A DNA stretch of 43,636 bases from Lysobacter sp. A03 (lineage in GTDB: Bacteria > Pseudomonadota > Gammaproteobacteria > Xanthomonadales > Xanthomonadaceae): NCBI RefSeq assembly GCF_000855665.1, contig NZ_JXSS01000074.1, positions 1-43,636 on the forward strand, given 5' to 3'. Both the position numbers and the translations under genes were made by a program. Below are positions 108 through 16,410 of the stretch, one piece after another. The notes beneath the pieces were generated by a model. The model was not told where the DNA came from, ran no database searches, and saw only the letters and a program-made list of their open reading frames with translations. Position 1 is the stretch's first letter. Each line of letters starts with the position of its first letter.

Positions 108-1055
108 CTAGCTTGAGGCGGTCTCGTGCGTGTTGGGCGGCGCCGCGGTCAGGATCGCCGACGGGGCTGCGTTCCAGATCGCATCCGCGCGCGATGCCAG
201 ATGCGCGAACACGCGTTCCAAGTGTTTGATCCGGTGCGGCTGGCCCATCACCCAGGGATGGATGTTGAGCGCGAGCAGACGGCCGTGGCCGGTCTCGCGC
301 GCCTCGCGGAGCAGGAACTCGCAGGCGTCGATCACCTGGTCGGCGTATTCGGATTCGGCGTGCAGGTTGTCACCGACGATGAAGCGGTCTTCCAGCTCCA
401 GCGACAGCGGCAGGATCGACAGCGGGCCGTGGTCGGTGTTGAAGGCGTACGGCAGTTCGTCGTTGACCCAGTCCGCGCCCCAGTCGAGTCCGGCCTCACG
501 CAGCAGATCGGGCGTGCGGTGTGACTGCGAGCGCGCCGGCGACAGCCAGCCACGGATCGGCTGATCGGAGTAAGGCGCCAGTGCAGCCAGACTGCGCTGG
601 ATCCACTCGCGCTCGCGTGCCTCGTCGAGACCGCCGTAATGGATGGCATCCATATTCCAGCCGTGGCCGAGCAGTTCAAAGCCGGTTGCCTGCACGCGGC
701 GCAGCAGCGCCGGGTAGCGTTCGGCGACTTCGCCATTGACCGCGACACTGGCCGTGAGGTCCTGCGCTTTCAGCGCATCCAGCACGCGGAACACCCCAAC
801 CCGGTTGCCATAGTCGCGCAGCGTGTAATGGCGCAGGTCCGGGTAGGGCATGGTCATGCTGCCGGGCGCCTTGAAGCCTTCGCCGGTCGGGTTCAGCGGG
901 AAGTGCTCCAGGCTCAGGTTCAGCCACAACGCCAGCGGCTTGCCGTCCGGCCACGCCACCGGGGCGCGCTCGGCCAGCATCGACCACGCATAGCGGTCAT
1001 GGTCCATGCCGTGGCGGCGGTTCGGGTATTCCAGGTATTCCGGGCCCAGGCTCAT
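108..1055 (-). CDS. PuuE-like polysaccharide deacetylase-fold hydrolase (paralogue 1)
   Basis: A 315-aa cytoplasmic protein of the NodB/PuuE superfamily, whose members hydrolyse C-N bonds in N-acetyl sugars or in cyclic amides such as allantoin. Visible signatures are RDYGNRVG (residues 80-87), the LLGHGWNM stretch (128-135) that carries the superfamily histidine, a WLSPARSQS segment (about 168-176), and NIHPWVMGQPHR near the C terminus, matching the PuuE HxxxxGxPxR region. It is one of three divergent paralogues in the window. Its ATG overlaps the stop codon of paralogue 2 by 4 bp (ATGA, 1052-1055), so translation is probably coupled. The position corresponding to PuuE EEGSE reads SLEHF, so the substrate probably differs from allantoin. 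Fold assignment is firm; substrate unknown. Confidence 0.85.
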   Translation of the reverse strand: MSLGPEYLEYPNRRHGMDHDRYAWSMLAERAPVAWPDGKPLALWLNLSLEHFPLNPTGEGFKAPGSMTMPYPDLRHYTLRDYGNRVGVFRVLDALKAQDLTASVAVNGEVAERYPALLRRVQATGFELLGHGWNMDAIHYGGLDEAREREWIQRSLAALAPYSDQPIRGWLSPARSQSHRTPDLLREAGLDWGADWVNDELPYAFNTDHGPLSILPLSLELEDRFIVGDNLHAESEYADQVIDACEFLLREARETGHGRLLALNIHPWVMGQPHRIKHLERVFAHLASRADAIWNAAPSAILTAAPPNTHETASS

Positions 1056-1996
1056 GCCGATGTCTCCTGCGCCGCCGCGTCGATCGACGCCAGCGCCTCG
1101 TCGTAGTGGTGCTCAAGGTAGTGCGCGGCGATCTCGCGGCCGGTGGTCTTCCACACGCCCGAGTGCTGGCTGATGTAGTCCATCGCGTCCTCGAAAGCGG
1201 CGATCCGGTGCGGGTGGCTGACCTGGTAGGCGTGCAGTGGCACGCACATCACGGTGCCGCTTTCCGCGCCCTCCTCGTACAGACGGTCGAAGGCGTCCTT
1301 GATCATCTGCCCGTAGCGGCGCGGCTCGATCTTGTTGACCACGTAGGTGATGGTGTCGTTGAGCTCCAGCGAGTAGGGCACCGAGACGAAGCGCTGGCCG
1401 CTGCGGGTGCGCACCGGGGTGGGCTGGTCGTCGTGGAACAGGTCGCAGGTGTACCGGCCGCCGGCCTCGGCGAACAGGTCGATGGTCGCGTTGGAGTGCG
1501 ACAGCGCCGGCGCCAGGTAGCCGTCGCAGTGCTGACCGGTGTGCTGGGCGATCAGTGCCATCGACTCCTCGATCATCTCCCGCTCCTGTGCCTCCGACAG
1601 GCCGTAGGTGTAGCGGGTGTTGTAGATGCCGTGGCTGAAGAACTCCCAATCGCGCTCGGCCGCCAGTTCGATCACCTCGGGGTGATGGATCAACGTCGCC
1701 GCCGACAGCGACACCGAGCCGCGCAGGCCGTACTTGTCCATCACCCGCATCATGCGCTGATGACCGACGCGGTTGCCGTAGTCACGCGTGGCGTAGCCCA
1801 GCACATCGGGCAGTGGCCGTGGCCACGGTTTGCGCAGTGGATTGGGCGGCGGGTCCAGCTCGTAGAACTCGATATTCGGCGCGATCCACAGCGCGACTCT
1901 GGCATCGCCGGGCCAGCGGATCTTCGGCCGGCTGTCGTAGGGCCAGTAGTCGTACAGGCCCGGATCGGCCTTCTGCGTGGGCGCGCCGGCACTCAT
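1052..1996 (-). CDS. PuuE-like polysaccharide deacetylase-fold hydrolase (paralogue 2)
   Basis: A 314-aa member of the same family as the downstream gene. The frame is open upstream to 2239, but the start is placed at 1996 (MSAGAPTQ): this ATG overlaps the stop of the amidohydrolase gene as ATGA (1993-1996), and the upstream extension is arginine-rich out-of-frame sequence. Signatures: WPGDARVALW (28-37), NIEFYE (41-46), RDYGNRVG (71-78), FFSHGIYN (119-126) and VPLHAYQVSHPHR near the C terminus. The HGIYN motif differs from HGWNM and HGWRW of the two paralogues, which argues for three distinct substrates or steps rather than simple redundancy. It sits in an operon with an MFS transporter and an isochorismatase-fold hydrolase, consistent with hydrolysis of an imported amide-containing compound. 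Confidence 0.86.
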   Translation of the reverse strand: MSAGAPTQKADPGLYDYWPYDSRPKIRWPGDARVALWIAPNIEFYELDPPPNPLRKPWPRPLPDVLGYATRDYGNRVGHQRMMRVMDKYGLRGSVSLSAATLIHHPEVIELAAERDWEFFSHGIYNTRYTYGLSEAQEREMIEESMALIAQHTGQHCDGYLAPALSHSNATIDLFAEAGGRYTCDLFHDDQPTPVRTRSGQRFVSVPYSLELNDTITYVVNKIEPRRYGQMIKDAFDRLYEEGAESGTVMCVPLHAYQVSHPHRIAAFEDAMDYISQHSGVWKTTGREIAAHYLEHHYDEALASIDAAAQETSA

Positions 1997-2667
1997 GGTG
2001 CGATCTTCTTCAGCTGCGCCGCCACCTCGTCGACGGCCTCCACGTCGGCGTACTTGAGCATGATGTCGGCCAGGTTGGCGAAGTGCGGGATCTCGTGCTT
2101 GTCGGCCACGCACTCCTCCACCACGATCGTGCGGAACCCACGCGACAGGCTGTCCACCGAGCAGGCGCGCACGCAGCCGGAGGTCGAGCCGCCGGTGATG
2201 ATCAGCGTGTCGATGCGGTGGAAGGTCAGCAGCGACCACAGATTGGTCTCGAAGAACGGGCTGGCCATCCGCTTGTGCATCACGATGTCGCCGGGCTGCA
2301 CGTCCGCACGTGGGTCGATCTGGGCGCGCTCGGAGCCGTGCTTGATGTTCTGCAGCGAGTCCGGCGTGTTGGTGCGCGTGCCCCAGACCCCGGCGTCCTC
2401 GCCGTTCTCCAGATAGGCAACGTAGGTCCAGATCACCGGTAGGCCGCGCTCGCGCACCAGCGCGGACAGGGTATTGATGTGCTCGATCTGGCGCGGGTCG
2501 GTCTCATACGCGGTCTTGAACGCGTCCATGTCGGTGTAGGCGCGCTGCACGTCGATGTTGACGATCGCCGGGCGCGAGCCGAAGCCGAACTTGGCGCGGT
2601 TGCGGTTGGCCTTGACCTGGGCCCAGTACTGGCGGGCGGTGAGGTCGGAGGTTTCCATTACAGCCAT
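1993..2667 (-). CDS. Isochorismatase-family cysteine hydrolase (amidohydrolase-like)
   Basis: A 224-aa cysteine hydrolase. The catalytic triad of the family is visible: Asp39 (VNIDVQRAY), Lys132 (MHKRMASPF) and Cys165 (STSGCVRACSVD). The STSGCVRA signature and the long N-terminal helix resemble N-carbamoylsarcosine amidohydrolase, maleamate amidohydrolase and related amidases more than isochorismatase itself. It probably releases ammonia or carbamate from a linear amide or carbamoyl compound, which would fit ring-opened product from the PuuE-like enzymes beside it. The start at 2667 is supported by AAGGAG eight bases upstream. The MFS gene ends 68 bp upstream, and the gene overlaps paralogue 2 by 4 bp. 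Family assignment is firm; substrate is inferred only from context. Confidence 0.9.
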   Translation of the reverse strand: MAVMETSDLTARQYWAQVKANRNRAKFGFGSRPAIVNIDVQRAYTDMDAFKTAYETDPRQIEHINTLSALVRERGLPVIWTYVAYLENGEDAGVWGTRTNTPDSLQNIKHGSERAQIDPRADVQPGDIVMHKRMASPFFETNLWSLLTFHRIDTLIITGGSTSGCVRACSVDSLSRGFRTIVVEECVADKHEIPHFANLADIMLKYADVEAVDEVAAQLKKIAP

Positions 2668-2683
2668 GAGGTGTCTCCTTGGA

Positions 2684-2718
2684 TCAATGAAGCCTGGGTC
2701 AATGAAGCCCGATCAATG
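2684..2718. repeat. Short direct repeats between MFS and amidohydrolase genes
   Basis: TCAATGAAGCC occurs at 2684-2694 and 2699-2709, followed by a partial third copy TCAATG at 2713-2718, with periods of 15 and 14 bp. The repeats fill the 68-bp spacer between the two genes of the operon. Either local slippage or a protein-binding array could explain them. Confidence 0.5.
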
Positions 2719-2735
2719 GGTTTTGCAGCCGCGCC

Positions 2736-3983
2736 TCAAGAGGCCGCTGCGGCCAGACGGATGCGTTCGTCGCGCACCAGCGTGGCCATGATCAGCGCCA
2801 GCACGATCAGCCCGAACACCAGCTGGAAGGCCGGCTGGTAGCTGCCGGTGAGGTCGAAGATCTTGGCCGCCAGCCAGATGCCCAGGCCGGCGGTCGTGGC
2901 GTCGAGCAGGGTCACCGAACCGAGGATCTTGCCGGCCGAGGACAGGCCGAACGCGTTGACCGCCAGCAGCTGGATCATCGTGTACAGACCGCCCCAGCCC
3001 AGACCGAACAGGATCAGCGAGTACCAGATCAGGTCCGCGCGCATCGTGGCCAGGATGAACGCACCGGTGGCCATGATGGTGAGGTTGACCAGGAACACCG
3101 CCTTAGGCGGCACCACGTCGGCCAGTGCGCCGAACAGGAACTTGCCGACCATCGCCAGACCGAACATCAGGGCCAGCGCGTTGCCGGCCTGGGCCGGTGC
3201 GAACTGGAGGTCGCGCATGTGCAGGAACAGGTTCTGCGACACGGCCATGATCGAGAAGAATGTCGCCATCGCCACCACGGCCAGTGCCCAGAAGGTGCGG
3301 GTGCGCAGCGCCTGCTTGTAGGTCACGTCGGGCAGGGTGACGATGTTGGCGGCCGCGTCCGAGATGACTTTGGCGGCCGCCTTGTCGGCGCCCCACGGCT
3401 TGATACCACCGGGCTGCGGACTGCGCACGAAGAAGTAGGCGATCACCAGGAACGTCAGCGGAATCGCCATCTCCCACATGAAGGCCGTCCGCCAGTTCAT
3501 GCCCAGCGTCTCCATGAGGTACACGCCGAGTCGTGGGAAAAGCATCCCGCCCATGCTGGTGCCCACCAGTGCAATACCGATGGCGGTGCCGCGATTGAGG
3601 GAGAACCACTGCGACACATAGATGACCGATACGGTCAGCCCCGCCGCGACCAGCACCACGCCGAACCCGACGTGGATCAGGTACAGCTGGGTCAGTGAAT
3701 GTACGTAGGCGTAGGCGAAGTACAGACCCGCCAGCAGCGCGATGCCGGCCAGGATCAGCTTGCGTGGACCGGCGCGATCGATCACCACACCAATGAAGGG
3801 CCCGAGCCAGCCAGCCAGCACCAGGGTGATCAGGTCGCGCATCTTCAGCTCACTGCGCGTCCAGCCGAACTCCTTCAACAGCGACTCGTCGAACGCGGTC
3901 AGCCCGGTGACAATCAAGCCGTTGGACGTCAGCAGGATCAGCAATCCCATTACCGCCATAAGCCATGGGTAGTAGCGCTTCAT
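2736..3983 (-). CDS. MFS transporter (OFA/monocarboxylate-porter-like)
   Basis: A 415-aa inner-membrane protein with about 12 hydrophobic segments. Start chosen at 3983 (MKRYYPWLMAVMG): it is preceded by GAGG, and the first transmembrane helix follows directly; the open frame upstream to 4442 runs through the operator and the divergent gene. The conserved cytoplasmic loop 2-3 motif is present as DRAGPRK, and SQWFSLNRGTAIGIALVG matches the substrate-translocation region of oxalate/formate antiporter- and MCT-like MFS proteins, which mainly carry organic anions. It heads the leftward operon and diverges from the HapK-like gene across a 141-bp spacer containing a perfect palindrome. The likely role is uptake of the pathway substrate across the inner membrane. 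Confidence 0.88.
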   Translation of the reverse strand: MKRYYPWLMAVMGLLILLTSNGLIVTGLTAFDESLLKEFGWTRSELKMRDLITLVLAGWLGPFIGVVIDRAGPRKLILAGIALLAGLYFAYAYVHSLTQLYLIHVGFGVVLVAAGLTVSVIYVSQWFSLNRGTAIGIALVGTSMGGMLFPRLGVYLMETLGMNWRTAFMWEMAIPLTFLVIAYFFVRSPQPGGIKPWGADKAAAKVISDAAANIVTLPDVTYKQALRTRTFWALAVVAMATFFSIMAVSQNLFLHMRDLQFAPAQAGNALALMFGLAMVGKFLFGALADVVPPKAVFLVNLTIMATGAFILATMRADLIWYSLILFGLGWGGLYTMIQLLAVNAFGLSSAGKILGSVTLLDATTAGLGIWLAAKIFDLTGSYQPAFQLVFGLIVLALIMATLVRDERIRLAAAAS

Positions 3984-4049
3984 TCTCTTACCTCTGCAGG
4001 TTGGTGTTGGCGGGATAGCCGACTGTAGGGGAGAAATCCGCGTCTGGCG

Positions 4050-4079
4050 TTGACCGGCAACGGATGGCATGCCTACACT
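4050..4079 (+). promoter_or_regulatory. Probable promoter of the rightward catabolic operon
   Basis: TTGACC (4050-4055) and TACACT (4074-4079), separated by 18 bp, match sigma-70 -35 and -10 elements at 5/6 and 4/6 positions. The -10 box overlaps the left edge of the palindrome at 4075-4096, the expected layout for a repressor operator. The HapK-like gene starts at 4125. Confidence 0.55.
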
Positions 4080-4096
4080 TTGTCCGGACAAAGTGT
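4075..4096. promoter_or_regulatory. Perfect 22-bp palindromic operator
   Basis: The half-site ACACTTTGTCC is followed immediately by its exact reverse complement, with the dyad centre between 4085 and 4086. The site lies in the 141-bp divergent spacer between the MFS operon (start 3983) and the HapK-like operon (start 4125), so one regulator could control both. The TTGT-N4-ACAA core resembles operators of FCD-type GntR repressors, but other families bind comparable sequences. The inner TGTCCGGACA recurs exactly at 23658-23667. Confidence 0.8.
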
Positions 4097-4124
4097 GCCA
4101 CAGTCGATTGCCCCGGAGGAAGCC

Positions 4125-4433
4125 ATGAATACCGTGATCGTTCTTTTCAACCTCAAGCCCGGCGCCAGCGTCGCGGATTACGAGAAATGGGCGCGCGAGC
4201 AAGACGTGCCAACGGTCAACGCCCTGGCGTCGGTCGACCGTTTCGAGGTGCTGCGGGCCAACGGCCTGCTGATCGGCGAGGGCAAGCCGCCCTACGAGTA
4301 CATCGAAATCATCCGCGTGCCGGACATGGCCGCCTTCGGTGCCGACATGGCAGGCGAGGCGGTTCAGGCCGGTGCTGCCCAGCTGCAGAAGTTTGCCGAC
4401 AACCCGATTTTCATCCTTGCCGAGTCGATCTGA
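4125..4433 (+). CDS. HapK/REDY-like small alpha-beta protein
   Basis: A 102-aa protein resembling the HapK (REDY-like) family, small ferredoxin-like alpha-beta barrel proteins named after a protein of the Hahella prodigiosin cluster but common in catabolic operons. Recognisable features are the opening TVIVLFNLKPGASVADYEKWAR, the DVPTVNALASVDRFEVLR segment and the closing PIFILAES strand. The start at 4125 is set by GGAGGA at 4115-4120. It is the first gene after the operator and lies 7 bp before the SDR gene. Its biochemical role is not known; a dimeric alpha-beta-barrel enzyme or small-molecule-binding function is plausible. No other prodigiosin genes are nearby. Confidence 0.72.
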   Translation: MNTVIVLFNLKPGASVADYEKWAREQDVPTVNALASVDRFEVLRANGLLIGEGKPPYEYIEIIRVPDMAAFGADMAGEAVQAGAAQLQKFADNPIFILAESI

Positions 4434-4440
4434 GGCCGCC

Positions 4441-5310
4441 ATGACCGCTGAAACCTCCCCGTTGCCGTCACCGCGCTACAGCGAACTCAAGGGCAAGGTC
4501 GCCCTGATCACCGGTGCCGGCCGCGCCGGCGGCCTGGGCGAGGGCATCGCCCGCCGCCTCGCCGCCGAGGGCTGCAAGGTGGTGATCACCGATATCGGCC
4601 AGGGCCGCGGCGAGGAGATGCCGGTCGATGCGATCGGCACCGACGAGGAAATGGCGCGTACCGCCGCCGCGATCACCGCCGCCGGGGGCGAGTGCATCGC
4701 GATGGCGCTGGACGTGCTGGAGGAAAGCCAGGTCGAGGCGGTGATCGCCCGGACGGTCGAGCGTTTCGGCGGCATCGACATCCTGGTCAACAACGCCGGC
4801 ATCGGCTACCTGATGAAATCCATCGTTGATATGGATGTCGCGGAATGGGACGCGGTGCTCGGGGTCAACCTGCGCGGCACCTTCCTGTGCACCAAGCACG
4901 CGGCGAAGGCGATGATCGCTCAGGGGCGCGGCGGACGCATCGTCAACATCGCCTCGCAGGCAGCCAAATCCGGGGTGCCACATGCCAGTGCGTACTGTTC
5001 CTCCAAGCACGGCGTGGTCGGCCTGACCCGGGTCAGCGCGATCGAGCTGGGCGGGCACGGCATCACCGCCAACGCGATCTGCCCCAACCACGTCACCACC
5101 GGTCTGGGCGCCTGGCAGAACGAGTACTTCGCCAAACTGCGCGGACTGAGTGTGGATGAGTACCTCGCCCAGATGCGCGCGCGAATCCCCCTGGGCCGCG
5201 CCGGTCTGCCCAGCGATACCGCGGCGGCCTGCGCATTCCTGTGTTCCGACGACGGCGCCTATGTCACCGGCGAGGCGATGAACGTCTCCGGCGGCGAAGA
5301 GACCCACTGA
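4441..5310 (+). CDS. SDR-family NAD(P)-dependent oxidoreductase
   Basis: A 289-aa classical short-chain dehydrogenase/reductase. The Rossmann nucleotide-binding motif TGAGRAGGLGEG is at residues 24-35, NNAG at 117-120, the catalytic serine at 172 (NIASQ), and the YxxxK pair at Tyr185/Lys189. The start is placed at 4441 (MTAETSPLPS), 7 bp after the upstream stop; the open frame further upstream overlaps the HapK-like gene. An insertion after the second beta strand (about residues 53-72) is longer than in minimal SDRs. In this operon it probably oxidises a hydroxyacyl intermediate or reduces a ketone; substrate unknown. Confidence 0.9.
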   Translation: MTAETSPLPSPRYSELKGKVALITGAGRAGGLGEGIARRLAAEGCKVVITDIGQGRGEEMPVDAIGTDEEMARTAAAITAAGGECIAMALDVLEESQVEAVIARTVERFGGIDILVNNAGIGYLMKSIVDMDVAEWDAVLGVNLRGTFLCTKHAAKAMIAQGRGGRIVNIASQAAKSGVPHASAYCSSKHGVVGLTRVSAIELGGHGITANAICPNHVTTGLGAWQNEYFAKLRGLSVDEYLAQMRARIPLGRAGLPSDTAAACAFLCSDDGAYVTGEAMNVSGGEETH

Positions 5311-5385
5311 CCGCGACGCGTCCACCACGCGACGATTCCATTTGATGCGGGCCGCGATGCCTGCACCGCAGAACCGGAGGGTTCA

Positions 5386-6264
5386 ATGTCCCAAACCACC
5401 TACGCCTGGCCCAACGACGCCCGACTCGCGCTGTCGGTCGTGGTCAATGTCGAGGAAGGCTCCGAGTACAGCATTGGCGAGGGTGACAAGATCACCGAGC
5501 CCGTCGATGAGCTGTCGGTCAGCCTGACCAAGCCGATCCGCAACTACGGCAACGAGTCCAACTACCGCTACGGCGTCAAGGAAGGCCACGCGCGCATTGC
5601 CGCGCTGCTGGACAAGTACGACGTCACCACCACATACACCGCCGCCGCGCTGTCGCTGGAGCGCGCCCCGGAGATCGCCGCGTACCTGCACGGCAGCCGC
5701 CACGAGACCTGTTCCCACGGCTGGCGCTGGATCCACCAGTTCCGCCTCAACCAGGAGCAGGAGCGCGAGTTCATCCGCAAGGCTGCCGACAGCATCGAGC
5801 GCACCACCGGCACCCGCCCGGTGGGTTGGCTGTCGCGCTACCTGCACACCGCCGACACCCGCCGGCTGCTGCAGGAAGAAGGCTTCCTGTACCACATGGA
5901 CGACTACTCGGCCGACGCGCCGTTCTGGGCGCCGGTGGAGGGTTCCGACGAGCCGATGGTGATCGTGCCCTACCAGCTGGACACCAATGACATGAAGATG
6001 TGGCTGGCGCCGTCCTACCTGCCCAAGGACTGGCTGGACTACGCGATCGACAGCTTCGACACCCTGTATGAGGAAGGTGCCCATGCACCGCGCATGATGT
6101 CGATCGGCCTGCACCTGCGGATCATCGGACGGCCCGGCCGGATCGGTGCGCTGGAGAAGTTCTTCCAGTACGTGGCCAGCAAACCCAAGGTCTGGTACGC
6201 GACCCGTCGCGGCATCGCCGAACACTTCGTCGCCAACAGTGACAAGAAGGTGGTCACCGTATGA
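5386..6264 (+). CDS. PuuE-like polysaccharide deacetylase-fold hydrolase (paralogue 3)
   Basis: A 292-aa protein and, of the three paralogues, the one closest to allantoinase PuuE. It has WPNDARLALSVVVNVEEGSE (8-27), a TCSHGWRW stretch (108-115), GLHLRIIGRPGR and a C-terminal KVWYATRRGIAEHF segment, all characteristic of PuuE. PuuE hydrolyses the amide bond of allantoin without resembling classical metal-dependent amidohydrolases. GGAGGG lies just before the start, and the 3' end overlaps the CitE-like gene by 4 bp (ATGA, 6261-6264). No other purine-degradation gene is present, so allantoin itself is an unlikely substrate; another hydantoin- or imide-like ring is more plausible. Confidence 0.88.
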   Translation: MSQTTYAWPNDARLALSVVVNVEEGSEYSIGEGDKITEPVDELSVSLTKPIRNYGNESNYRYGVKEGHARIAALLDKYDVTTTYTAAALSLERAPEIAAYLHGSRHETCSHGWRWIHQFRLNQEQEREFIRKAADSIERTTGTRPVGWLSRYLHTADTRRLLQEEGFLYHMDDYSADAPFWAPVEGSDEPMVIVPYQLDTNDMKMWLAPSYLPKDWLDYAIDSFDTLYEEGAHAPRMMSIGLHLRIIGRPGRIGALEKFFQYVASKPKVWYATRRGIAEHFVANSDKKVVTV

Positions 6265-7130
6265 GCACGCCGTCGAACGGTTCTGCCGTCGTCAATCCGC
6301 GCCGCTGCCTGCTGTTCGTACCCGGCTCGCGCCCGGAGCGCTATGCCAAGGCGGTTGCCACGGGTGCCGACCAGGTCTGCATCGATCTGGAGGACGCGGT
6401 CGCGCCGGGCGACAAGGACAGCGCGCGCGCCTCGGTGTTCGCCTTCCTGGCCGACGCCCCCGAGTCGTACAGCGAAATCGGCTTGCGTCTGAATCCGCTC
6501 TCGACCGAGCTGGGTCGCAAGGATCTGGCCGAGCTCAAGGCGTCCGGCCTGACGCCGGCGTTCGTGATGTTGCCCAAGGTCGAGACCGTGCAGGAGTTAC
6601 TGGACGCTGATGCCGTTCTGGCCGGGTCCGACACCGGGCTGATCGCCCAGATCGAGACCCCGCGCGGGCTGCTGGATGCCCGCGAGCTCGCCCGCGCCAC
6701 GCCGCGCCTGCAGGCGCTGATGTTTGGCGGCTTTGACTTCATTGTCGCCCTGCGCGGCCGCGCCAGCTGGGAAAGCTTCTTCCATCCGCGCGTGCAGCTG
6801 GCCGTGATCGCTGCCGAAGCCGGCATCGGCTGCCTCGACGTCCCGTATCTGGACATCAAGGACGAGGCCGGACTGGTTGCCGAGACCGACCGTGTGATCG
6901 CGCTGGGCTTCACCGCCAAGGCTGCGATCCATCCGGCGCAGGTTGATCCGATCCAGCAGCGCTACCTGCCCACCGCCGAGGAGCTGGATCGCGCCAAGCG
7001 GGTGGTCGCCGCGCTGCAGGCCAATCGTGGCGAGGCGATCCAGCTGGACGGAAAACTCGTAGACCGACCAATTGAGATTGCCGCCGAGCGCGCCATTGCG
7101 CTGGGCGTACATGGCGCGCGTCAGGACTGA
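6261..7130 (+). CDS. HpcH/HpaI aldolase / CitE-like CoA-ester lyase
   Basis: A 289-aa TIM-barrel lyase of the CitE group, which includes citrate lyase beta subunit, malyl-CoA lyase and citramalyl-CoA lyase. The N-terminal RRCLLFVPGSRPERYAKA and CIDLEDAV segments, the RLNPL arginine region, IETPRGLLDA (Mg-binding glutamate) and the C-terminal AKAAIHPAQV are all visible. The usual AEDF metal-ligand motif reads GGFDF here, retaining the aspartate. Together with the MaoC hydratase and CaiB transferases, it points to final C-C cleavage of a hydroxyacyl-CoA. The start overlaps the upstream stop (ATGA). Confidence 0.88.
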   Translation: MSTPSNGSAVVNPRRCLLFVPGSRPERYAKAVATGADQVCIDLEDAVAPGDKDSARASVFAFLADAPESYSEIGLRLNPLSTELGRKDLAELKASGLTPAFVMLPKVETVQELLDADAVLAGSDTGLIAQIETPRGLLDARELARATPRLQALMFGGFDFIVALRGRASWESFFHPRVQLAVIAAEAGIGCLDVPYLDIKDEAGLVAETDRVIALGFTAKAAIHPAQVDPIQQRYLPTAEELDRAKRVVAALQANRGEAIQLDGKLVDRPIEIAAERAIALGVHGARQD

Positions 7131-7216
7131 TCATCGCCCGACACATCGCTCCACCACCCGTTGTTGCTTCCCGTTTCATTACTCCCACCCAGCTTCCCAG
7201 ACAACAGGAACCCCCC

Positions 7217-7735
7217 ATGGTCCAGACAGCCAAGAAAGTCGGTGAGAACCGCTACCGCGAGACGTTCGGTCGCTTCTTCGAGGAGTTCACGGTCGGTGAT
7301 ACGTACGAGCACCGCCCCGGCCGCACGATCACCGAGACCGACAACACCTGGTTCACCCTGCTGACGATGAACACGCACCCGATGCACTTCGACAAGGAAT
7401 ACGCGAAGGCCTCCGAGTTCGGCAAGATCATCGTTTGCTCGCCGTTTACCGTCGCCCTGATGGTCGGCATGAGCGTGACCGACGTCAGCCAGAAAGCCGT
7501 GGCCAACCTGGGCTGGTCGGAAATCAAGCTGACCCACCCGCTGTTCGTGGGCGATACCCTGTACGCCGAGTCGACCGTGCTGGAAAAGCGCGAGTCCAAG
7601 TCGCGCCCCGGCGCCGGCATCGTCACCTGCAGCACCATCGGCCTGAACCAGGACGGCAAGACCGTGTGCACCTTCAACCGCACCATGCTGATCGCCAAGC
7701 AGGGTCACTCGGTTGAAGACAAGGTCAACTACTGA
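7217..7735 (+). CDS. MaoC-family (hot-dog) enoyl-CoA hydratase-like protein
   Basis: A 172-aa single hot-dog domain protein. The hydratase-2 type signature appears as TDNTWFTLLTMNTHPMHFD followed by ASEFGKIIVCSPF, with the catalytic Asp/His pair expected in the first segment. Related proteins hydrate acyl-CoA double bonds, for example mesaconyl-CoA and R-specific enoyl-CoA hydratases. It is separated from the CitE-like gene by 86 bp with no evident terminator, and from the acyl-CoA dehydrogenase by 11 bp. The expected role is hydration of the enoyl-CoA made by that dehydrogenase. Confidence 0.88.
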   Translation: MVQTAKKVGENRYRETFGRFFEEFTVGDTYEHRPGRTITETDNTWFTLLTMNTHPMHFDKEYAKASEFGKIIVCSPFTVALMVGMSVTDVSQKAVANLGWSEIKLTHPLFVGDTLYAESTVLEKRESKSRPGAGIVTCSTIGLNQDGKTVCTFNRTMLIAKQGHSVEDKVNY

Positions 7736-7746
7736 GTACTGATGCC

Positions 7747-8916
7747 ATGAGCAACGAGACGAATGCCGAGTGGAGCGCCGAGGACGAGCAGGCGCTGCTG
7801 GACACGATCGATGGCTGGATCGAGAAGTCGGTCGCGCCGATCGCGCGCGAGTACGACCTTGAGGACAAGTACCCGCACGAGCTGGTAGAGGAAATGAAGG
7901 ACCTCGGCCTGTTTGGCGCGACCATCTCGCAAAAATACGGCGGCCTTGGTTTGCCGGCCAGCATCTACGCCAAGATCGTGATCCGCATCTCGGCGGTGTG
8001 GATGGCGCCGACCGGCATCTTCAACTCGCACCTGATCATGGCCTCCGCGATTGAGCGCGCCGGCACCGAGGAGCAGAAGCAGCACTACCTGCCGCTGATG
8101 GCGACCGGCGAGCTGCGCGGTGGCATTGGCCTGACCGAGCCCAATGCCGGGACCGACCTGCAGGCGATCCGCACAGTTGCGAAGCTTGAAGGTGATCATT
8201 ACGTCATCAACGGCGCCAAGACCTGGATCACCAACTCGCTGCACGGCGACATGATCCTGCTGCTGGTCAAGACCGACCCGGATGCGCAGCCGCGCTACAA
8301 GGGCATGAGCATGTTCATTGCCGAGAAGGGCGATGGTTTCATCGTCGCCAACAAGATGAAGAAGAGCGGCTACCGCTCCATCGACACCTGCGAGCTGGTG
8401 TTCGAGGACTACAAGGTGCCGGTTGAGCGTCTGCTCGGCGGCGTGGAAGGCCAGGGCTTCAAGCAGACCCTGGGTGGCCTGGAGCTGGGCCGGATCAACG
8501 TGGCGGCACGCGGTTGCGGCATCGCCGAAGGTGCGCTGCGCCTGTCGGTGCGCTACGCGCAGGAGCGCAAGACCTTCGGCGTGCCGATTGCCGAGCACCA
8601 GGCGATCCAGCTCAAGCTGGGCGAGATGGCGTCCAAGGTCGAGGCCTCCAAGCTGCTGATCGAAAGCGCCGCCAAGGCGTTCGACAAGGGCGAGCGCTGC
8701 GACATGGAAGCGGGCATGGCGAAGTACTTCGCGACCGAGACCGGCGCGTACTGCGCCCAGGAAGGCATGCGCATCTTCGGTGGCTACAGCTACTCCACCG
8801 AGTACGAGATCGAGCGCTTTCACCGCGACGCGATGCTGATGTGCATCGGCGAGGGCACCAACGAGATGCAGAAAATCATCATCGCCAAGCAGCTGGTCGC
8901 CAGAAACGCGATCTAG
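7747..8916 (+). CDS. Acyl-CoA dehydrogenase
   Basis: A 389-aa FAD enzyme of full family length. Typical segments are GGIGLTEPNAGTDLQAIRT, KTWITNS, the RKTFGVPIAEHQAIQ helix and the C-terminal IGEGTNEMQK, whose glutamate occupies the usual catalytic-base position. ITEP-type flavin-contact residues are conserved. It should introduce an alpha,beta double bond into a CoA thioester and pass electrons to ETF. It is packed between the MaoC hydratase (11 bp) and a CoA-transferase (15 bp), which gives an activation-dehydrogenation-hydration series within one transcript. Confidence 0.93.
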   Translation: MSNETNAEWSAEDEQALLDTIDGWIEKSVAPIAREYDLEDKYPHELVEEMKDLGLFGATISQKYGGLGLPASIYAKIVIRISAVWMAPTGIFNSHLIMASAIERAGTEEQKQHYLPLMATGELRGGIGLTEPNAGTDLQAIRTVAKLEGDHYVINGAKTWITNSLHGDMILLLVKTDPDAQPRYKGMSMFIAEKGDGFIVANKMKKSGYRSIDTCELVFEDYKVPVERLLGGVEGQGFKQTLGGLELGRINVAARGCGIAEGALRLSVRYAQERKTFGVPIAEHQAIQLKLGEMASKVEASKLLIESAAKAFDKGERCDMEAGMAKYFATETGAYCAQEGMRIFGGYSYSTEYEIERFHRDAMLMCIGEGTNEMQKIIIAKQLVARNAI

Positions 8917-8931
8917 GACGGAGACAACACC

Positions 8932-10119
8932 ATGAGCGAGCTTCCCCTCAAGGGCGTGCGCATCCTGGCCGTGGAGCAGTACGGCGCCGGGCCCTATGGC
9001 TCGATGCACCTGGCCGACCTGGGCGCGGAAGTGATCAAGATCGAGTCGCCCCCGGGCGGCGACGTCTCCCGCGCGACCGGGCCGTACTTCCTCGGCGAAG
9101 GCGACAGCCAGTTTTTCCAGACCTTCAACCTCAACAAGCATTCGTTGCGGCTGGATCTGAAGAGCGCCGAGGGCCGCGAGGTGTTCGAGAAACTGGTCGG
9201 CACCGCCGATGCGGTGCTCAACAACCTGCGCGGTGACCAGCCGGCCAAGCTGGGTCTGGACTACGCCACTCTGGGCAAAGTCAACCCGAAGATCGTCTGC
9301 GCCCACCTGTCTGCCTACGGGCGCGACAACGAGCGGGCGGCGTGGCCGGGCTACGACTACCTGATGCAGGCCGAGGCCGGCTTCATGGCCTTGACCGGCG
9401 AGCCCGGGCAACCGCCCGCGCGGTTCGGGCTGTCGATGGTCGACTTCATGACCGGTACGACGATGGCGATGGGCCTGCTGGCCGCGCTGGTCGGCGCGAT
9501 GCGCAGCGGGCAGGGGCGCGACGTCGACGTCAGCCTGTTCGACGTGGCTCTGCACCAGCTCAGCTACCCGGCCACCTGGTACCTCAACGAAGGCCACGAG
9601 ACGACCCGTCTGGAGCGGTCCGCGCACCCCAGCACGGTGCCGTGCCAGGTGTACCGCACCAGCGATGGCTGGGTGATGGTGATGTGCATGCTGGAGAAGT
9701 TCTGGCAGACCTTCATCGCCGGCATCGAGCGTCCGCAGTTGGGCACCGATCCGCGCTTTACCGACTTCCCGGCGCGCCGCGAACACCGCGAGGCGCTGAC
9801 GCCGCTGGTGGACGAGGCGTTGATGCAGCACGACACCGCGTACTGGACGGAGAAGTTTGCCGGCCAGATCCCGATCGCACCGGTGTACGACATCGCACAG
9901 GCGCTGGACAATCCGTATGTCGAACGCATCGGCATGCTGCAATCGGTTGACCACCCGCAGGGCGCACAGCGGATGCTGCGCAACCCGATCAAGCTCGACG
10001 GTCAGCGTCTGGACGGCATCGCCTGCCCGCCGCTGAGTGCCGATGCCGACGCGCTGCTGGCCGAGCTGGGATACAGCGCCGAGGATCGTGCACGGCTGCT
10101 CGAGCAAGGTGTGGTCTGA
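8932..10119 (+). CDS. CaiB/BaiF family CoA-transferase (1)
   Basis: A 395-aa family III CoA-transferase. The N-terminal LKGVRILAVEQYGAGPYGSMHLADLGAEVIKIE block, the AYGRD segment and the catalytic aspartate in SMVDFMTG (Asp171) are all present. These enzymes move CoA between carboxylic acids through aspartyl-CoA thioester intermediates. It lies 15 bp after the acyl-CoA dehydrogenase and is followed by an intrinsic terminator, so it probably ends the main transcript. The probable role is activating the free acid released by the hydrolases. Confidence 0.92.
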   Translation: MSELPLKGVRILAVEQYGAGPYGSMHLADLGAEVIKIESPPGGDVSRATGPYFLGEGDSQFFQTFNLNKHSLRLDLKSAEGREVFEKLVGTADAVLNNLRGDQPAKLGLDYATLGKVNPKIVCAHLSAYGRDNERAAWPGYDYLMQAEAGFMALTGEPGQPPARFGLSMVDFMTGTTMAMGLLAALVGAMRSGQGRDVDVSLFDVALHQLSYPATWYLNEGHETTRLERSAHPSTVPCQVYRTSDGWVMVMCMLEKFWQTFIAGIERPQLGTDPRFTDFPARREHREALTPLVDEALMQHDTAYWTEKFAGQIPIAPVYDIAQALDNPYVERIGMLQSVDHPQGAQRMLRNPIKLDGQRLDGIACPPLSADADALLAELGYSAEDRARLLEQGVV

Positions 10120-10124
10120 GCCTC

Positions 10125-10166
10125 GTTATTTAATAACCGGGAGGGGCGCATGATGCGCCCCGTTTT
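10125..10166 (+). terminator. Palindrome plus intrinsic terminator between the two CoA-transferase genes
   Basis: GTTATT-T-AATAAC (10125-10137) is a perfect AT-rich dyad. It is followed by GGGGCGCAT (10143-10151) and ATGCGCCCC (10153-10161), a near loop-less 9-bp inverted repeat that in RNA would open to a slightly shorter stem, then GTTTTG. The second element has the shape of a weak rho-independent terminator, 23 bp after the first CaiB stop. ATG codons inside it (10150, 10153) are not credible starts. Confidence 0.62.
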
Positions 10167-10179
10167 GCTGGAGTCGACG

Positions 10180-11295
10180 ATGAAACTGGAAGGCGTGCGC
10201 GTTCTTGACCTGTCGCTGTTCCTGCCCGGGCCGCATCTGACGATGATGATGGCCGACCACGGCGCGGACGTGATCAAGGTCGAGCCACCGAGCGGCGAGC
10301 CAGTCCGCGAGGTCGGCCTGAAGCAGGCCGGCGTGTCGACCTGGTTCCGCAATACCCACCGCGGCAAGCGTTGCATCGTGCTCGACCTCAAGAGCGAGAC
10401 CGGCAAAGCGGCGTTCGCGCGGCTGGTCGAGCGCGCCGACGTGGTGGTCGAGGCGTTCCGTCCGGGTGTGGCCAAGCGGCTGGGCATCGATTACGACAGT
10501 TGCCGCGCGCTCAACCCGGCCATTGTCTACTGCTCAATCAGCGCCTACGGCCAGACCGGGCCGAAGGTCCAGCGGCCCGCGCACGATCTGGCGATGCAGG
10601 CCGACAGCGGCGTGGTCAGCCTCAACCTGGGCCCCGACGGCTCGCCCGCCTCGCCGCACATGCCTGTGGCCGACATGGCCGGCTCGCTGATGGCGCTGTC
10701 GGCGATCCTGATGGCCCTGTACCGCCGCGAGAAAACCGGGTCGGGCGATTACATCGACCTGTCCATGCAGGACGCGCTGATGGCGTGGCTGCCCAACGTG
10801 CTGGGTCCACCATTCGCCGAGCACCGCGACCCGGTGGTCAAGGACGAGCGCAGCTGGGGCGGCAACGCGCTGTACCGGCTGTACCGCTGCAGCGACGACC
10901 GCTGGCTCGCGCTGGGCGGCGCCGAGCACAAGTTTGCCGACAACCTGCTGGACGCGCTGGACCGGCCTGACCTGGCGCCGTTGTGCCGCCTACCGCCGGG
11001 GCCAGGGCAGGATCCGGTCAAGGCCTTCCTCGCCGACACCTTCGCCACCCGCCCGCTGGCCGAGTGGGTCGCGTTCCTGGAGCCGCTGGACGTCTGCTGG
11101 GCACCGGTGAAGACGCTGACCGAAGCGTTCAACGACCTGCACACCCGCGCGCGTGAGATGGTCTGGACCGCGCCGGACGGCGGTACCCACCTGGGCATTC
11201 CGATCCGGTTTGCCAACGAGCCGGGACGAATCGATCCGCGTTTGGATGAGCTGGGCGAGTCGACGGCCGACGTACTTGCGGAGCTTGGGCTTTAG
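10180..11295 (+). CDS. CaiB/BaiF family CoA-transferase (2)
   Basis: A 371-aa family III CoA-transferase, distinct from the preceding one. Start chosen at 10180 (MKLEGVRVLDLS): it follows a GGAG, the protein then aligns with family N termini, and the upstream ATG lies in a terminator hairpin. Conserved features are LPGPHLTMMMADHGADVIKVEPPSGE, SAYGQTGP and the catalytic Asp165 (PVADMAGS). Two CoA-transferases in one locus suggest two acids are activated, or that one enzyme recycles the CoA donor. The terminator in front implies read-through or a separate promoter. Confidence 0.9.
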   Translation: MKLEGVRVLDLSLFLPGPHLTMMMADHGADVIKVEPPSGEPVREVGLKQAGVSTWFRNTHRGKRCIVLDLKSETGKAAFARLVERADVVVEAFRPGVAKRLGIDYDSCRALNPAIVYCSISAYGQTGPKVQRPAHDLAMQADSGVVSLNLGPDGSPASPHMPVADMAGSLMALSAILMALYRREKTGSGDYIDLSMQDALMAWLPNVLGPPFAEHRDPVVKDERSWGGNALYRLYRCSDDRWLALGGAEHKFADNLLDALDRPDLAPLCRLPPGPGQDPVKAFLADTFATRPLAEWVAFLEPLDVCWAPVKTLTEAFNDLHTRAREMVWTAPDGGTHLGIPIRFANEPGRIDPRLDELGESTADVLAELGL

Positions 11296-13171: not shown

Positions 13172-13684
13172 TCAGGGCTCCAGGGCCTCGCCGGCAAAGC
13201 TGTCGCCGGTGATCTGCTGCCAGTTGTGGCTGGCACGCTTCTCGTCGATCAGCGTGCGCTGGATCAGCACGCCCTTGCGGTACCAGTGCCAGACCCGGTT
13301 GCGCAGGTTGCCGCAGTCCGACAGCTGGATCATCTCGTACAGCTCCAGGCCTTCCTCGCCCTTGCGCTGCCAATACAGCATCAGGGTGCGGTGGAAGTCG
13401 TCGGCCGGGATTTCGGTGCACCAGCCGTAGATCAGCTCGTTGTCGAAGATGATCCGGCCGAAGGAGTAGGTGGTCTTGAAGTCGCGCACTTCGGTTTTGC
13501 CATCGGCCCAACTGTAGTTGTTGGTCTGGTGGTAGGGCACCGCGTCGTCGCCAGTGAAGCGGCAGACCAGGCGCGAGGCGTGCTCGTCGGTCTTGTTGCC
13601 CTCGGCGTCGTAGTAGCGGTACATCCCGTCCCAGACGCCTTCGTGGCGGGCGAGGGCGGGCATGTGCATCTTGAGGTCGATCAT
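13172..13684 (-). CDS. Unknown 170-aa beta-rich protein (calycin/DUF3598-like?)
   Basis: A 170-aa protein with no signal peptide, rich in aromatic residues and predicted beta strands: GVWDGMYRYYDAEGN, YHQTNNYSWADGK, LMLYWQRKGEEGLELYEMIQ and VWHWYRKGVLIQRTLIDEKRA. The pattern of alternating strands with an early WxGxY motif resembles lipocalin/calycin-type small-molecule-binding proteins such as DUF3598, but I cannot assign it firmly. The start at 13684 (MIDLKMHMPA) has AAGGA just upstream; an in-frame extension to 13765 is unlikely. It sits in the leftward four-gene operon, so a role on the same small molecule as the methyltransferase is plausible. Confidence 0.72.
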   Translation of the reverse strand: MIDLKMHMPALARHEGVWDGMYRYYDAEGNKTDEHASRLVCRFTGDDAVPYHQTNNYSWADGKTEVRDFKTTYSFGRIIFDNELIYGWCTEIPADDFHRTLMLYWQRKGEEGLELYEMIQLSDCGNLRNRVWHWYRKGVLIQRTLIDEKRASHNWQQITGDSFAGEALEP

Positions 13685-13772: not shown

Positions 13773-14153
13773 TTACTCGTCGCGCATCTGCGCGATCAGG
13801 TCGGCCATCGGTGGCTCCTTGGAGCCGGCCTCCAGCGCCTCGGTTTCCTGCTGCACGATGCGCAGCACGCGGGCTACGTATTCCTGCATCCAGGTGGTGC
13901 GCTCGGCCTCCGCATCGGCGTCGGGGGTGAAGGCGTCCAGCTCGGCGCGCGTGGCCACGCCCTTGGACTCGATCAGCCGTTCCAGCGCGTCCAGCCGCTG
14001 CCGGGTCACGGCGTGCTCCATCGCAATCACCATCGCGATCGAGAGCACGCGCTCCACGTCGGGATCCTTGAAGAAGTACGGACGCTTGCCCTTCGGGCGT
14101 GTGCCTGCGAGGGCGATCGGATCGATGTCTTCAATGCCGGGAAGTTCACTCAT
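13773..14153 (-). CDS. Unknown 126-aa helical protein
   Basis: A 126-aa acidic, mostly helical protein that I do not recognise. It has a short N-terminal segment (ELPGIEDIDPIALAGTRPKGKRPYFF), then long amphipathic helices (VERVLSIAMVIAMEHAVTR, QRLDALERLIESKG, AERTTWMQEYVARVLRIVQQE). There is no signal peptide or membrane segment. Its ATG overlaps the methyltransferase stop codon as ATGA (14150-14153), which fixes the start over an upstream in-frame ATG at 14177. Tight coupling suggests an accessory subunit or partner of the methyltransferase; this is inference from position only. Confidence 0.75.
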   Translation of the reverse strand: MSELPGIEDIDPIALAGTRPKGKRPYFFKDPDVERVLSIAMVIAMEHAVTRQRLDALERLIESKGVATRAELDAFTPDADAEAERTTWMQEYVARVLRIVQQETEALEAGSKEPPMADLIAQMRDE

Positions 14154-15334: not shown

Positions 15335-15360
15335 GGTGTGCTCCATTCAGTTTCGGTGCA

Positions 15361-15528: not shown

Positions 15529-16410
15529 ATGCTGCGACTCTTCTCCGTGATGGCCCTTGCGACAAGTGCCTTTGTGCCCTCCGCCCTGGCCCAGTCGGCG
15601 ACATCGGCCGCGCAGCCGGCGACCGATATCGGCAACACCGATGCGATGGTCAAGATGCGCTGTTCGCTGGACCCGAAGGAGGACGTGATCCTGTGGTGGT
15701 CGGGCACGGTTTTCGCGCAGTTGCCGGAAAAAGCACCCTCCGCGCTGCTGGGTTTCGAGGGCTACAACATCTGTCGCGCCGAGAAGCAGGCCGACGGCAC
15801 CTGGCGCCTGCTGACGCGTGAGCTGACGTTCTACCGCGACCTGAAGACCGGAAAGATCATCGATCAGTGGGACAACCCCATGACCGGTGAGCGCAACGAG
15901 GTGTTGCAGGTCGCCAACGACCCGGTCAACAACGTGCTCAACCCGCCGGGCCGTCCGTCGACCGTGCCTTGGGTGGAAGCCGGCGACCAGCTGATGCTGA
16001 CGATGAACATCCCGCTGACCTATCCCAACCCTCTGCCGCCCAAGGATTTCCCCAAGCAGTCGTCGGGCGAGATGTACATGGGTTCGGAGCACTTCATGTT
16101 CTTCACTCCCCGTGCGGCCATCGAGGACCCGTCCCTTACCCAGGCCCCCGCGACCTATGGCTGGACCCGGACCGGCCCGTGGTTGCCGTGGATGGAAATG
16201 GGCCAGGCGCCGGGCGGACTGTTGTACATCGCCCAGGGCAACAAGAAGGCCTCCATCGCCGAGCTTCCCGCGGACATCCAGGAGCGCGTGCGCACGACCT
16301 ATCCGGAGTACGCCACCGCACCGAAGGAGTGGGTCCAGCCGAACATGACCAGCTGGACGGTCTACAAGCAGTGGCACGATAGCCAGCAGCAGGCCAAGAA
16401 AGCCAAGTAA
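15529..16410 (+). CDS. Exported DUF1838 family protein
   Basis: A 293-aa protein with a clear Sec signal peptide (MLRLFSVMALATSAFVPSALA, cleavage after residue 21). The body matches DUF1838: KMRCSLDPKEDVILWWSGTVFAQLP, LTRELTFYRDLKTGKIIDQWDNPMTGERNEVLQVANDPVN and a C-terminal TWTRTGPW-type aromatic region. The family function is unestablished; its members recur beside TonB receptors and oxidoreductases in catabolic islands. The start at 15529 is preceded by GAGG and yields the signal peptide; the open frame begins earlier at 15433. It is probably periplasmic and co-expressed with the amine oxidase and TonB receptor downstream. Confidence 0.87.
   Translation: MLRLFSVMALATSAFVPSALAQSATSAAQPATDIGNTDAMVKMRCSLDPKEDVILWWSGTVFAQLPEKAPSALLGFEGYNICRAEKQADGTWRLLTRELTFYRDLKTGKIIDQWDNPMTGERNEVLQVANDPVNNVLNPPGRPSTVPWVEAGDQLMLTMNIPLTYPNPLPPKDFPKQSSGEMYMGSEHFMFFTPRAAIEDPSLTQAPATYGWTRTGPWLPWMEMGQAPGGLLYIAQGNKKASIAELPADIQERVRTTYPEYATAPKEWVQPNMTSWTVYKQWHDSQQQAKKAK

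Follow-up and report, generated by a model that had tools for sequence, protein, structure and literature searches.

The window analysed here (43,636 bases, the whole of contig G000:C36 in the 2.86-Mb genome of Lysobacter sp. A03) carries a gene set that looks like an undescribed pathway for opening small nitrogen-containing rings and converting them to common nutrients. Three PuuE-like hydrolases (PuuE1, PuuE2 and PuuE3), an isochorismatase-fold amidohydrolase (ISO) and a series of genes for CoA-thioester chemistry diverge from one operator. We lean towards the view that this locus belongs to a catabolic regulon, present in alpha-, beta- and gammaproteobacteria, whose substrates are five-membered cyclic imides with a methyl branch, or the hydroxylactams that precede them. 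Compared with a first-pass annotation of this DNA, the unit is both more extensive and more sharply defined: it has an operator in common, a hydrolase encoded by two genes, and amidase, ligase, hydratase and lyase modules that can replace one another.

The minus strand encodes, in order from the operator, MFS, ISO, PuuE2 and PuuE1, and the plus strand HAPK-SDR-PuuE3-CitE-MaoC-ACAD-CaiB1-CaiB2, both diverging from a 22-bp palindrome:

108..1055, minus strand: PuuE1, PuuE-like NodB-fold protein, probable second subunit of a PuuE2/PuuE1 hydrolase; PF01522, active-site columns relaxed
1052..1996, minus strand: PuuE2, PuuE-like hydrolase, probable catalytic subunit; PF01522, start taken at 1996, overlapping the ISO stop
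1993..2667, minus strand: ISO, isochorismatase-fold cysteine amidohydrolase (half-amide or carbamoyl); PF00857
2736..3983, minus strand: MFS transporter of oxalate/formate-lactate type; PF07690, NCBIfam matches under cut-off
4075..4096, no strand: operator, perfect 22-bp palindrome ACACTTTGTCCGGACAAAGTGT, between MFS and HAPK
4125..4433, plus strand: HAPK, HapK/EthD-like small protein; PF11639, first gene of the plus-strand operon, in 56/80 loci
4441..5310, plus strand: SDR, short-chain dehydrogenase; PF13561/PF00106, proposed to oxidise hydroxylactam to imide
5386..6264, plus strand: PuuE3, predicted PuuE-like cyclic amide/imide hydrolase; TIGR03212 248 bits, cut-off 424.6
6261..7130, plus strand: CitE, HpcH/HpaI lyase; nearest named family RipC/Ccl (NCBIfam 225.8 bits, cut-off 375), PDB 3qll
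7217..7735, plus strand: MaoC, (R)-enoyl-CoA hydratase-like; nearest named family RipB/Ich (NCBIfam 254.7 bits, cut-off 340)
7747..8916, plus strand: ACAD, acyl-CoA dehydrogenase; PF00441 and others, best PDB match 4iv6
8932..10119, plus strand: CaiB1, class III CoA-transferase; PF02515, nearest the succinate-glutarate (229.9 bits, cut-off 750) and succinyl-CoA:mesaconate (220.6 bits, cut-off 700) transferases
10180..11295, plus strand: CaiB2, class III CoA-transferase or 2-methylacyl-CoA racemase-like; PF02515, PDB matches include the racemases 2g04 and 1x74

Open reading frames and Pfam matches (Polysacc_deac_1 three times, Isochorismatase, MFS_1, HapK, SDR, HpcH_HpaI, MaoC, acyl-CoA dehydrogenase and CoA_transf_3 twice) place every gene where the first-pass annotation had it. 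The motifs it named are there as well, with HGWNM at residue 131 of PuuE1, HGIYN at 122 of PuuE2 and HGWRW at 111 of PuuE3, as is the Asp39, Lys132, Cys165 triad of ISO. Its single operator, the palindrome at 4075-4096, is real.

Conservation was assessed in the best 80 of at least 478 confirmed PuuE3 loci, found when three aligned PuuE3 orthologues were used to scan GTDB contigs, a gene being counted as present at 40% identity or more. The set includes Lysobacter, Stenotrophomonas, Paraglaciecola, Colwellia, Thalassotalea, Shewanella and Microbulbifer, and also Burkholderiales; the PuuE3 of Lysobacter antarcticus is 99% identical to that of the window. SDR was found in 62 loci, ACAD in 57, HAPK and MaoC in 56 each, CitE and CaiB1 in 54 each, CaiB2 in 46, ISO in 29, PuuE1 and PuuE2 in 27 each and MFS in 10. 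A core of MaoC, ACAD and CaiB1 is present in 50/80 loci, a triplet of PuuE1, PuuE2 and ISO in 27/80, and both in 24/80. SDR lies directly upstream of PuuE3 in 59/78 loci. The gene set is thus kept together beyond its own genome and across bacterial classes, the co-occurrence that the first-pass annotation had proposed as a check. The importer assigned there is less constant: the MFS gene is present, with a counterpart in only those 10 loci, and in other genomes its relatives belong to a second, operator-linked operon.

The two modules often share a genome when they are not adjacent. PuuE2 was sought genome-wide in 45 genomes, three of them known positives. For 26 loci with the core, the fetched stretch lacks the triplet, and PuuE2 was found elsewhere in 22 of the 25 genomes searched (14 genes on the same contig, 7 on other contigs and 1 unplaced). 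At E<=1e-100, PuuE2 occurs in 22/25 core genomes versus 6/17 genomes without a core in the stretch (p 0.0007), a comparison limited by at least one of the 17 (G308) having the core on another contig. Among 274 genomes of the class, PuuE2 (E<=1e-60) occurs in three, the same three that carry PuuE3 at 63-100% identity; the chance of two such pairs coinciding among 273 genomes is 2.7e-5. The three are the Lysobacter genome itself, one of its family, and G046, in which the two genes are on different contigs and the PuuE2 locus has the order ISO-PuuE2-PuuE1-LeuC-LeuD, with genes of the MmgE/PrpD, PaaK-like and amidase types diverging from it. In 26 further genomes of the class the PuuE3 homologues reach at most 44% identity.

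The operator is common to both modules. Across nine aligned sequences, those of the window and of eight loci of Lysobacter/Stenotrophomonas type, its 18-base core does not vary; one outer base of the palindrome is changed in two of them, L042 and L043. At up to three mismatches the core occurs once in the window, where shuffling predicts 0.00. The motif ATTTGTCCGGACAAAT precedes both modules in alpha-, beta- and gammaproteobacterial genomes, and a GntR/UTRA gene is often adjacent to it. With at most 2 mismatches and within 250 bp upstream, it precedes HAPK in 42/56 loci, compared with 26/715 other genes and 0/5600 shuffled upstream regions. The fetched loci (2.34 Mb) hold 88 sites against a shuffle expectation of 0, and 23 whole genomes, picked because the operator had already been seen in them, hold 93 sites at up to 1 mismatch (1 to 11 per genome) versus 2 for the reversed pattern used as control. 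Sites stand ahead of PuuE3, ACAD, ISO and LeuC-like genes in the fetched loci, ahead of HAPK, ETF-QO, DUF1838 and TonB genes as well, and ahead of MaoC in a Sandarakinorhabdus metagenome-assembled genome. The ETF-QO gene is under the operator in two betaproteobacterial genomes, which fits an electron outlet for ACAD. The exact core also occurs in 69 viral-contig stretches, which we take as chance, and no ISO relative was confirmed in viral contigs.

The regulator is most likely the GntR/UTRA protein encoded beside the operator, which is predicted to bind TTTGTCCGGACAAA. In 7/20 operator stretches the site lies directly before a GntR-like-family gene, usually divergent from MmgE/PrpD-PaaK-amidase genes, and GntR and UTRA domains were confirmed in L185, L187 and L200. 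The Lysobacter genome has just one other operator site, with 3 mismatches to the 18-base core. This site is found on contig C89, flanked by a CoA-transferase-family gene and an MmgE/PrpD operon, and a single gene separates it from a GntR/UTRA gene; contigs C99 and C72 seem to extend this operon with PaaK-like, amidase and CaiB genes. Together the three contigs (L185, L275, L280) apparently form one split locus, in the order flavoprotein, GntR/UTRA, CoA-transferase-family, operator, two MmgE/PrpD, PaaK-like, amidase, CaiB and then LeuC/LeuD, ending with two C28-type proteins, an amine-oxidase-like gene and another GntR-like gene.

The PuuE-like proteins group outside the allantoinases. In a tree of 246 sequences, PuuE3 (83/83, support 0.997), PuuE1 (61/61, 0.952) and PuuE2 (73/73, 0.839) each form a clan, apart with support 0.999 from a group holding 28/29 reference or class homologues. 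The references include three annotated allantoinases, two of them beside purine genes (L145 and L147, near uraH and puuD), the remainder being unlabelled. Each paralogue therefore has its own clan outside the allantoinase clan, as the tree check suggested in the first-pass annotation had envisaged, in a tree made up of the three paralogue groups and the reference and class homologues alone. Scores to the PuuE allantoinase family TIGR03212 (86.9, 128.8 and 248 bits) are all under its cut-off of 424.6. At the active site (P. aeruginosa PuuE numbering), H126, D187, D217 and H259 prevail in all groups. PuuE2 keeps N34, E36, H126, D187, D217 and H259, and PuuE1 has H126 at 0.92, H259 at 0.84 and E36 at 0.59. 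PuuE3 keeps the allantoinase loop around G46-D47 and, by its sequence, is a separate, allantoinase-like enzyme. Among the five PDB matches of each paralogue, the imidase-related structure 3qbu ranks last or last but one, and a closest kinship to the HxnM/HpPgdA imidases was not found. In the part of the structural account consulted, PuuE has no bound metal and HpPgdA is inactive on allantoin (PMC3084791), and the consulted part of a 2024 survey of NodB-fold enzymes lists, of PuuE-like proteins, allantoinases only (PMC10967932).

The first-pass annotation counted three PuuE-like hydrolases. Three distinct paralogues are indeed present, though their independence is probably wrong, as PuuE2 and PuuE1 form a fixed gene pair. 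Among PuuE2 copies of at least 44% identity, 70/70 have a PuuE1-like gene directly downstream and 61/70 have ISO directly upstream; some of these copies are near-identical (L110/L111, L122/L127), and the loci were picked for a PuuE-like gene or the operator, so the fractions describe these loci, not genome-wide rates. Given this pairing, we infer that PuuE2/PuuE1 is probably one two-subunit enzyme with PuuE2 as the catalytic subunit. One PuuE2 orthologue, G296:C7:48306-49199 (L133), has an in-frame TGA, a sequencing slip or a decayed copy. On a plasmid of Arthrobacter crystallopoietes (L149), hydroxylase genes of the xanthine-dehydrogenase family lie ahead of a PuuE2/PuuE1-like pair and an asparaginase gene comes after it, a gene order suggesting that other heterocycles feed the same type of hydrolase.

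Downstream of ring opening, the loci vary in their carbon-skeleton genes. Several core-less loci, mostly alphaproteobacterial, have PuuE3 adjoining MmgE/PrpD, PaaK-like and amidase genes instead. A LeuC-like gene is present in 20/70 PuuE2 stretches (3/27 in the 80-locus set, 7/12 on plasmids, and 7/20, 2/10 and 1/1 in fetched stretches) and a glutaryl-CoA dehydrogenase (GcdH) in 11/70, the L064 GcdH matching 3eom with 608 bits. In L155 and L158, GcdH-ISO-PuuE2-PuuE1 stand in a row with the operator between GcdH and a divergent LeuC. In L159, L163 and L166, LeuC, LeuD and a methylisocitrate-lyase-like gene lie beside the triplet and GcdH; the lyase-like proteins of these three loci score 296-306 bits, and such proteins overall 252-306 bits, under the PrpB cut-off of 354.4. 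The L159 LeuC exceeds the homoaconitate-family cut-off (480 versus 385.7). The Lysobacter genome itself encodes a LeuC relative (65%) followed by LeuD, with CaiB and GntR-like genes nearby, and a lyase (282.5 bits, likewise under the cut-off) that is 77% identical to a triplet-side lyase labelled B. plantarii (L126). No operator-like site was found on the stretches of its LeuC, lyase and second glutaryl-CoA dehydrogenase genes. The two glutaryl-CoA dehydrogenase genes of this genome (G000:C36:20626-21813 and G000:C77:64358-65530) are 98% identical, perhaps through a recent duplication. A PrpB beside the Stenotrophomonas cluster (L030) was considered as a special lyase and set aside, its 519 bits against a cut-off of 353 marking an ordinary methylisocitrate lyase.

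From these families we infer the following reactions. SDR would oxidise a hydroxylactam to the cyclic imide, PuuE3 and the two-subunit PuuE2/PuuE1 would open such rings to half-amides, and ISO, or elsewhere an amidase-signature amidase, would remove ammonia to leave a dicarboxylate. On a CoA branch, CaiB1 would then transfer CoA, CaiB2 would transfer CoA or epimerise the 2-methyl center, ACAD would form the enoyl-CoA, MaoC would hydrate it, and CitE would cleave a citramalyl-CoA-type ester into an oxoacid and an acyl-CoA. For CaiB2, the transferase 10uh scores higher than the racemases 2g04 and 1x74, and the CaiB2 sequence has a visible AHD motif, a candidate for the catalytic His-Asp pair of 2-methylacyl-CoA racemase. 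On a free-acid branch, LeuCD would hydrate a maleate-type acid, to be cleaved by the methylisocitrate-lyase-like enzyme into pyruvate and a second acid. The order given in the first-pass annotation (ring opening, deamidation, CoA transfer, dehydrogenation, hydration, cleavage) fits the enzyme families, and its single-pathway model, consistent with the tree and co-occurrence results, is partly supported, its chemistry being predicted from family membership.

As for the natural substrate, chlorophyll or haem fragments fit best so far, and we suggest tentatively that the regulon may mineralise oxidised tetrapyrrole fragments from chlorophyll, haem or bilin rings. Hematinic acid is the imide of 2-methyl-homoaconitate. 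Because its diacid is methyl-homoaconitate, hydration and a methylisocitrate-lyase-type cleavage would give pyruvate and glutarate, and it is this yield by just these steps that leads to the tetrapyrrole proposal; the free-acid branch fits hematinic acid unusually well. Under such a scheme, PuuE2/PuuE1 would open hematinic acid, ISO would deamidate it, a homoaconitase-family LeuCD would hydrate the diacid and the lyase would release pyruvate and glutarate, the latter passing through a succinate-glutarate-type CoA-transferase to GcdH. The methylvinyl-, methylethyl- or dihydro-rings would fall to the HAPK-SDR-PuuE3-CoA branch. Pointers in this direction are the GcdH row in L155 and L158, LeuCD with the lyase in L159, L163 and L166, the LeuC score of L159, the LeuCD, lyase and two GcdH genes of the Lysobacter genome, the fold of an operator-linked lipocalin (C29) encoded further along the window, and TonB receptors under the operator. 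A further pointer is that senescent leaves and lake sediments contain maleimides and hematinic acid, which are taken as chlorophyll products in the part of that account consulted (PMC7318184). Against it, no haem- or bilin-specific gene was found, and GcdH is in only 11/70 of the PuuE2 stretches.

Several observations weigh against the cyclic imide regulon. The NCBIfam matches quoted for the window proteins are all under their curated cut-offs, MaoC and CitE included, as is the CitE of L055 (234.4 versus 375). PuuE3 matches PuuE structures with 232-239 bits and the imidase-related 3qbu with 47, and the best PDB match of ISO would suit a ureide. A distant PuuE2 relative (L150, 42% identity) has no PuuE1 neighbor. 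The core is absent from 30/80 loci, some of them short contigs, CitE is absent from the G046 operon and some alphaproteobacterial loci, and only 3/27 triplet loci of the 80-locus set have a LeuC-like gene. No operator was found upstream of HAPK in 14/56 loci, five Microbulbifer loci included. PuuE2 was not found in 3/25 core genomes searched, and most PuuE2 genes outside the fetched stretch are loosely linked to the core. Relaxing the search to E<=1e-50 gives PuuE2 in 22/25 core genomes versus 11/17 without a core in the stretch (p 0.12), G308 with its core on another contig again being among the 17. Finally, the methyltransferase-like, amine-oxidase and DUF genes described below have no place in the proposed scheme.

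A ureide route is one alternative. PuuE-like enzymes would open a hydantoin or dihydropyrimidine to an N-carbamoyl acid, ISO would decarbamoylate it, and the CoA genes would process the deaminated carbon skeleton. PuuE acts on allantoin, PuuE3 retains the allantoinase loop, and ISO, a member of the isochorismatase family by its PF00857 match and Asp/Lys/Cys triad, is closest to N-carbamoylsarcosine amidohydrolase (26st, 143 bits) and also matches 1nba (100 bits). It is close as well to 4l07 (110 bits) and 3ot4 (91 bits), which we take to be maleamate amidases, and to 4l08. With similar scores to both types of structure, ISO may act on either a half-amide or a carbamoyl group. The transaminase or ammonia-lyase that a ureide would call for was not seen among the recurring families that were annotated, which are part of the whole, and a diacid free of nitrogen is what the LeuCD-like hydratases, dicarboxylate CoA-transferases and glutaryl-CoA dehydrogenase suggest. 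We therefore regard a ureide substrate as unlikely.

Somewhat less likely still are two neighboring pathways, an imide or ureide module beside an unrelated CoA module of the itaconate/methylsuccinate type. Such a separation would explain why PuuE2 and PuuE3 are on different contigs in 7/22 of the genomes with PuuE2 outside the stretch and why three core genomes gave no PuuE2. The triplet is also plasmid-borne with other partners, one plasmid pair having no adjacent ISO, in a search that covered the plasmids only. In the sphingomonads, plasmids pJE1 (L122) and pTomTYG65b (L127) share a near-same block of the triplet, two LeuCD-like pairs, an HMG-CoA-lyase-like gene and an ICL/PEP-mutase-family gene. 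Against two pathways, the same operator precedes both modules, the two modules occur in the same three of the 274 genomes, and PuuE3 itself lies inside the CoA operon, between SDR and CitE/MaoC. The partner CoA-transferase of the itaconate route belongs to the acetyl-CoA hydrolase/transferase family; no such protein lies beside MaoC and CitE in the window, and one beside the second operator of the genome scores far under the named cut-offs. Ordinary allantoin or purine catabolism with misread paralogues, suggested by the TIGR03212 match of PuuE3 and its 43% identity to an annotated P. aeruginosa puuE, is very improbable and was rejected, given the sub-threshold scores, the separate clans and the failure to find an OHCU decarboxylase in the Lysobacter genome, in a search limited to that enzyme.

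The cluster, for which we favor cyclic imides or hydroxylactams as substrates, probably extends beyond the 108-11295 span of the first-pass annotation, and the following features of the window come into question:

13172..13684, minus strand: C29, DUF3598-like lipocalin; AlphaFold pLDDT 85.7, homologue under the operator in three betaproteobacterial loci
13773..14177, minus strand: C16, small conserved protein with no Pfam match; in 17/80 loci
14150..15346, minus strand: C14, methyltransferase-domain protein; PF13649, in 18/80 loci
15529..16410, plus strand: DUF1838 protein; PF08894, homologues under the operator in L186, L191 and L194
16574..18004, plus strand: FAD amine-oxidase-family protein with a TAT-like signal, possible member; PF01593, PF10518
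18044..20503, plus strand: TonB-dependent receptor, possible member; PF00593, PF07715
20626..21816, plus strand: glutaryl-CoA dehydrogenase-like protein, possible member; best PDB matches are glutaryl-CoA dehydrogenases

Besides the 18 loci with the methyltransferase and 17 with C16, homologues at 40% identity or more are found for C29 in 5 and for DUF1838 in 3 of the 80. C14, C16 and, in other genomes, C23 (a 243-residue protein with no Pfam family) make up a conserved unit close to each of the two modules. The amine-oxidase-family and TonB genes have only distant homologues there (at most 36%); those of the amine oxidase (C22) occur in 10/80 loci, and three C22 genes are under the operator, as are TonB receptors in relatives. 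The C29 model resembles the PDB folds BFA1, DUF3598, Ycf58 and CPES, a bilin lyase. The eight best matches have a TM of 0.53-0.67 on the model, but this is a weak pointer since the lipocalin fold is a general one. In three betaproteobacterial genomes (L071, L074 and L075, near 3441-3673), two abutting operator copies 16 bases apart precede the C29 gene. A fold search with DUF1838 was uninformative, its 19 matches at E<=0.001 reaching a TM of only 0.17-0.26 on the model. The DUF1456 gene at 11357 was discarded as a member, being present in only 1/80 relatives' loci. Microbulbifer loci L082, L086, L091, L094 and L102 hold the gene set together with a Rieske oxygenase, a GST and another GntR/UTRA gene.

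If the proposal is right, nitrogen-ring catabolism in alpha-, beta- and gammaproteobacteria would gain genes, an operator and a testable reaction order. The PuuE-like enzymes, labelled polysaccharide deacetylases in the annotated records examined here, would also gain a member with two subunits. As the operator makes the regulon readable in the genomes that carry it, the substrate can be sought by induction. Were that substrate a tetrapyrrole fragment, the regulon would show a route by which chlorophyll or haem pyrrole rings enter central metabolism.

A literature search, with most subscription journals outside its coverage, found no description of the gene set, and nothing relevant on plasmid pJE1, DUF1838, the operator core or tetrapyrrole, bilirubin or maleimide clusters. 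Among known systems, the PuuE allantoinases share the columns H126, D187, D217 and H259 with all three paralogues and the G46-D47 loop with PuuE3, but differ in clan, score and purine gene neighbors, which are missing here. ISO shares family and triad with the maleamate and N-carbamoylsarcosine amidohydrolases, its scores assigning it to neither. In the itaconate route (Ict-Ich-Ccl), RipB and RipC are the nearest relatives of MaoC and CitE; here, however, the scores are under the equivalog cut-offs, CoA transfer is of the CaiB type, and ACAD and ring-opening genes are added. In the methylcitrate cycle and in the dimethylmaleate/dimethylmalate steps of nicotinate fermentation, a LeuCD/aconitase-family hydratase is followed by a methylisocitrate-lyase-like enzyme. 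The same pair stands beside the triplet in L159, L163 and L166 and on plasmids, whereas the lyases here are under the PrpB cut-off and the side chain of the substrate would be longer or of another kind. The nicotinate route of A. nidulans, in the part of its description consulted, uses the HxnW dehydrogenase, the NodB-fold cyclic imidase HxnM and the HxnN amidase in order (PMC9304392). HxnM is kin of the P. putida imidase and HpPgdA, while PuuE3 is nearest PuuE; HxnM is also a single protein where PuuE2/PuuE1 is a pair, and a CitE-type lyase is not mentioned in that part of the account. The order of steps is nonetheless the same, with SDR and PuuE3 here followed by ISO or an amidase-signature amidase.

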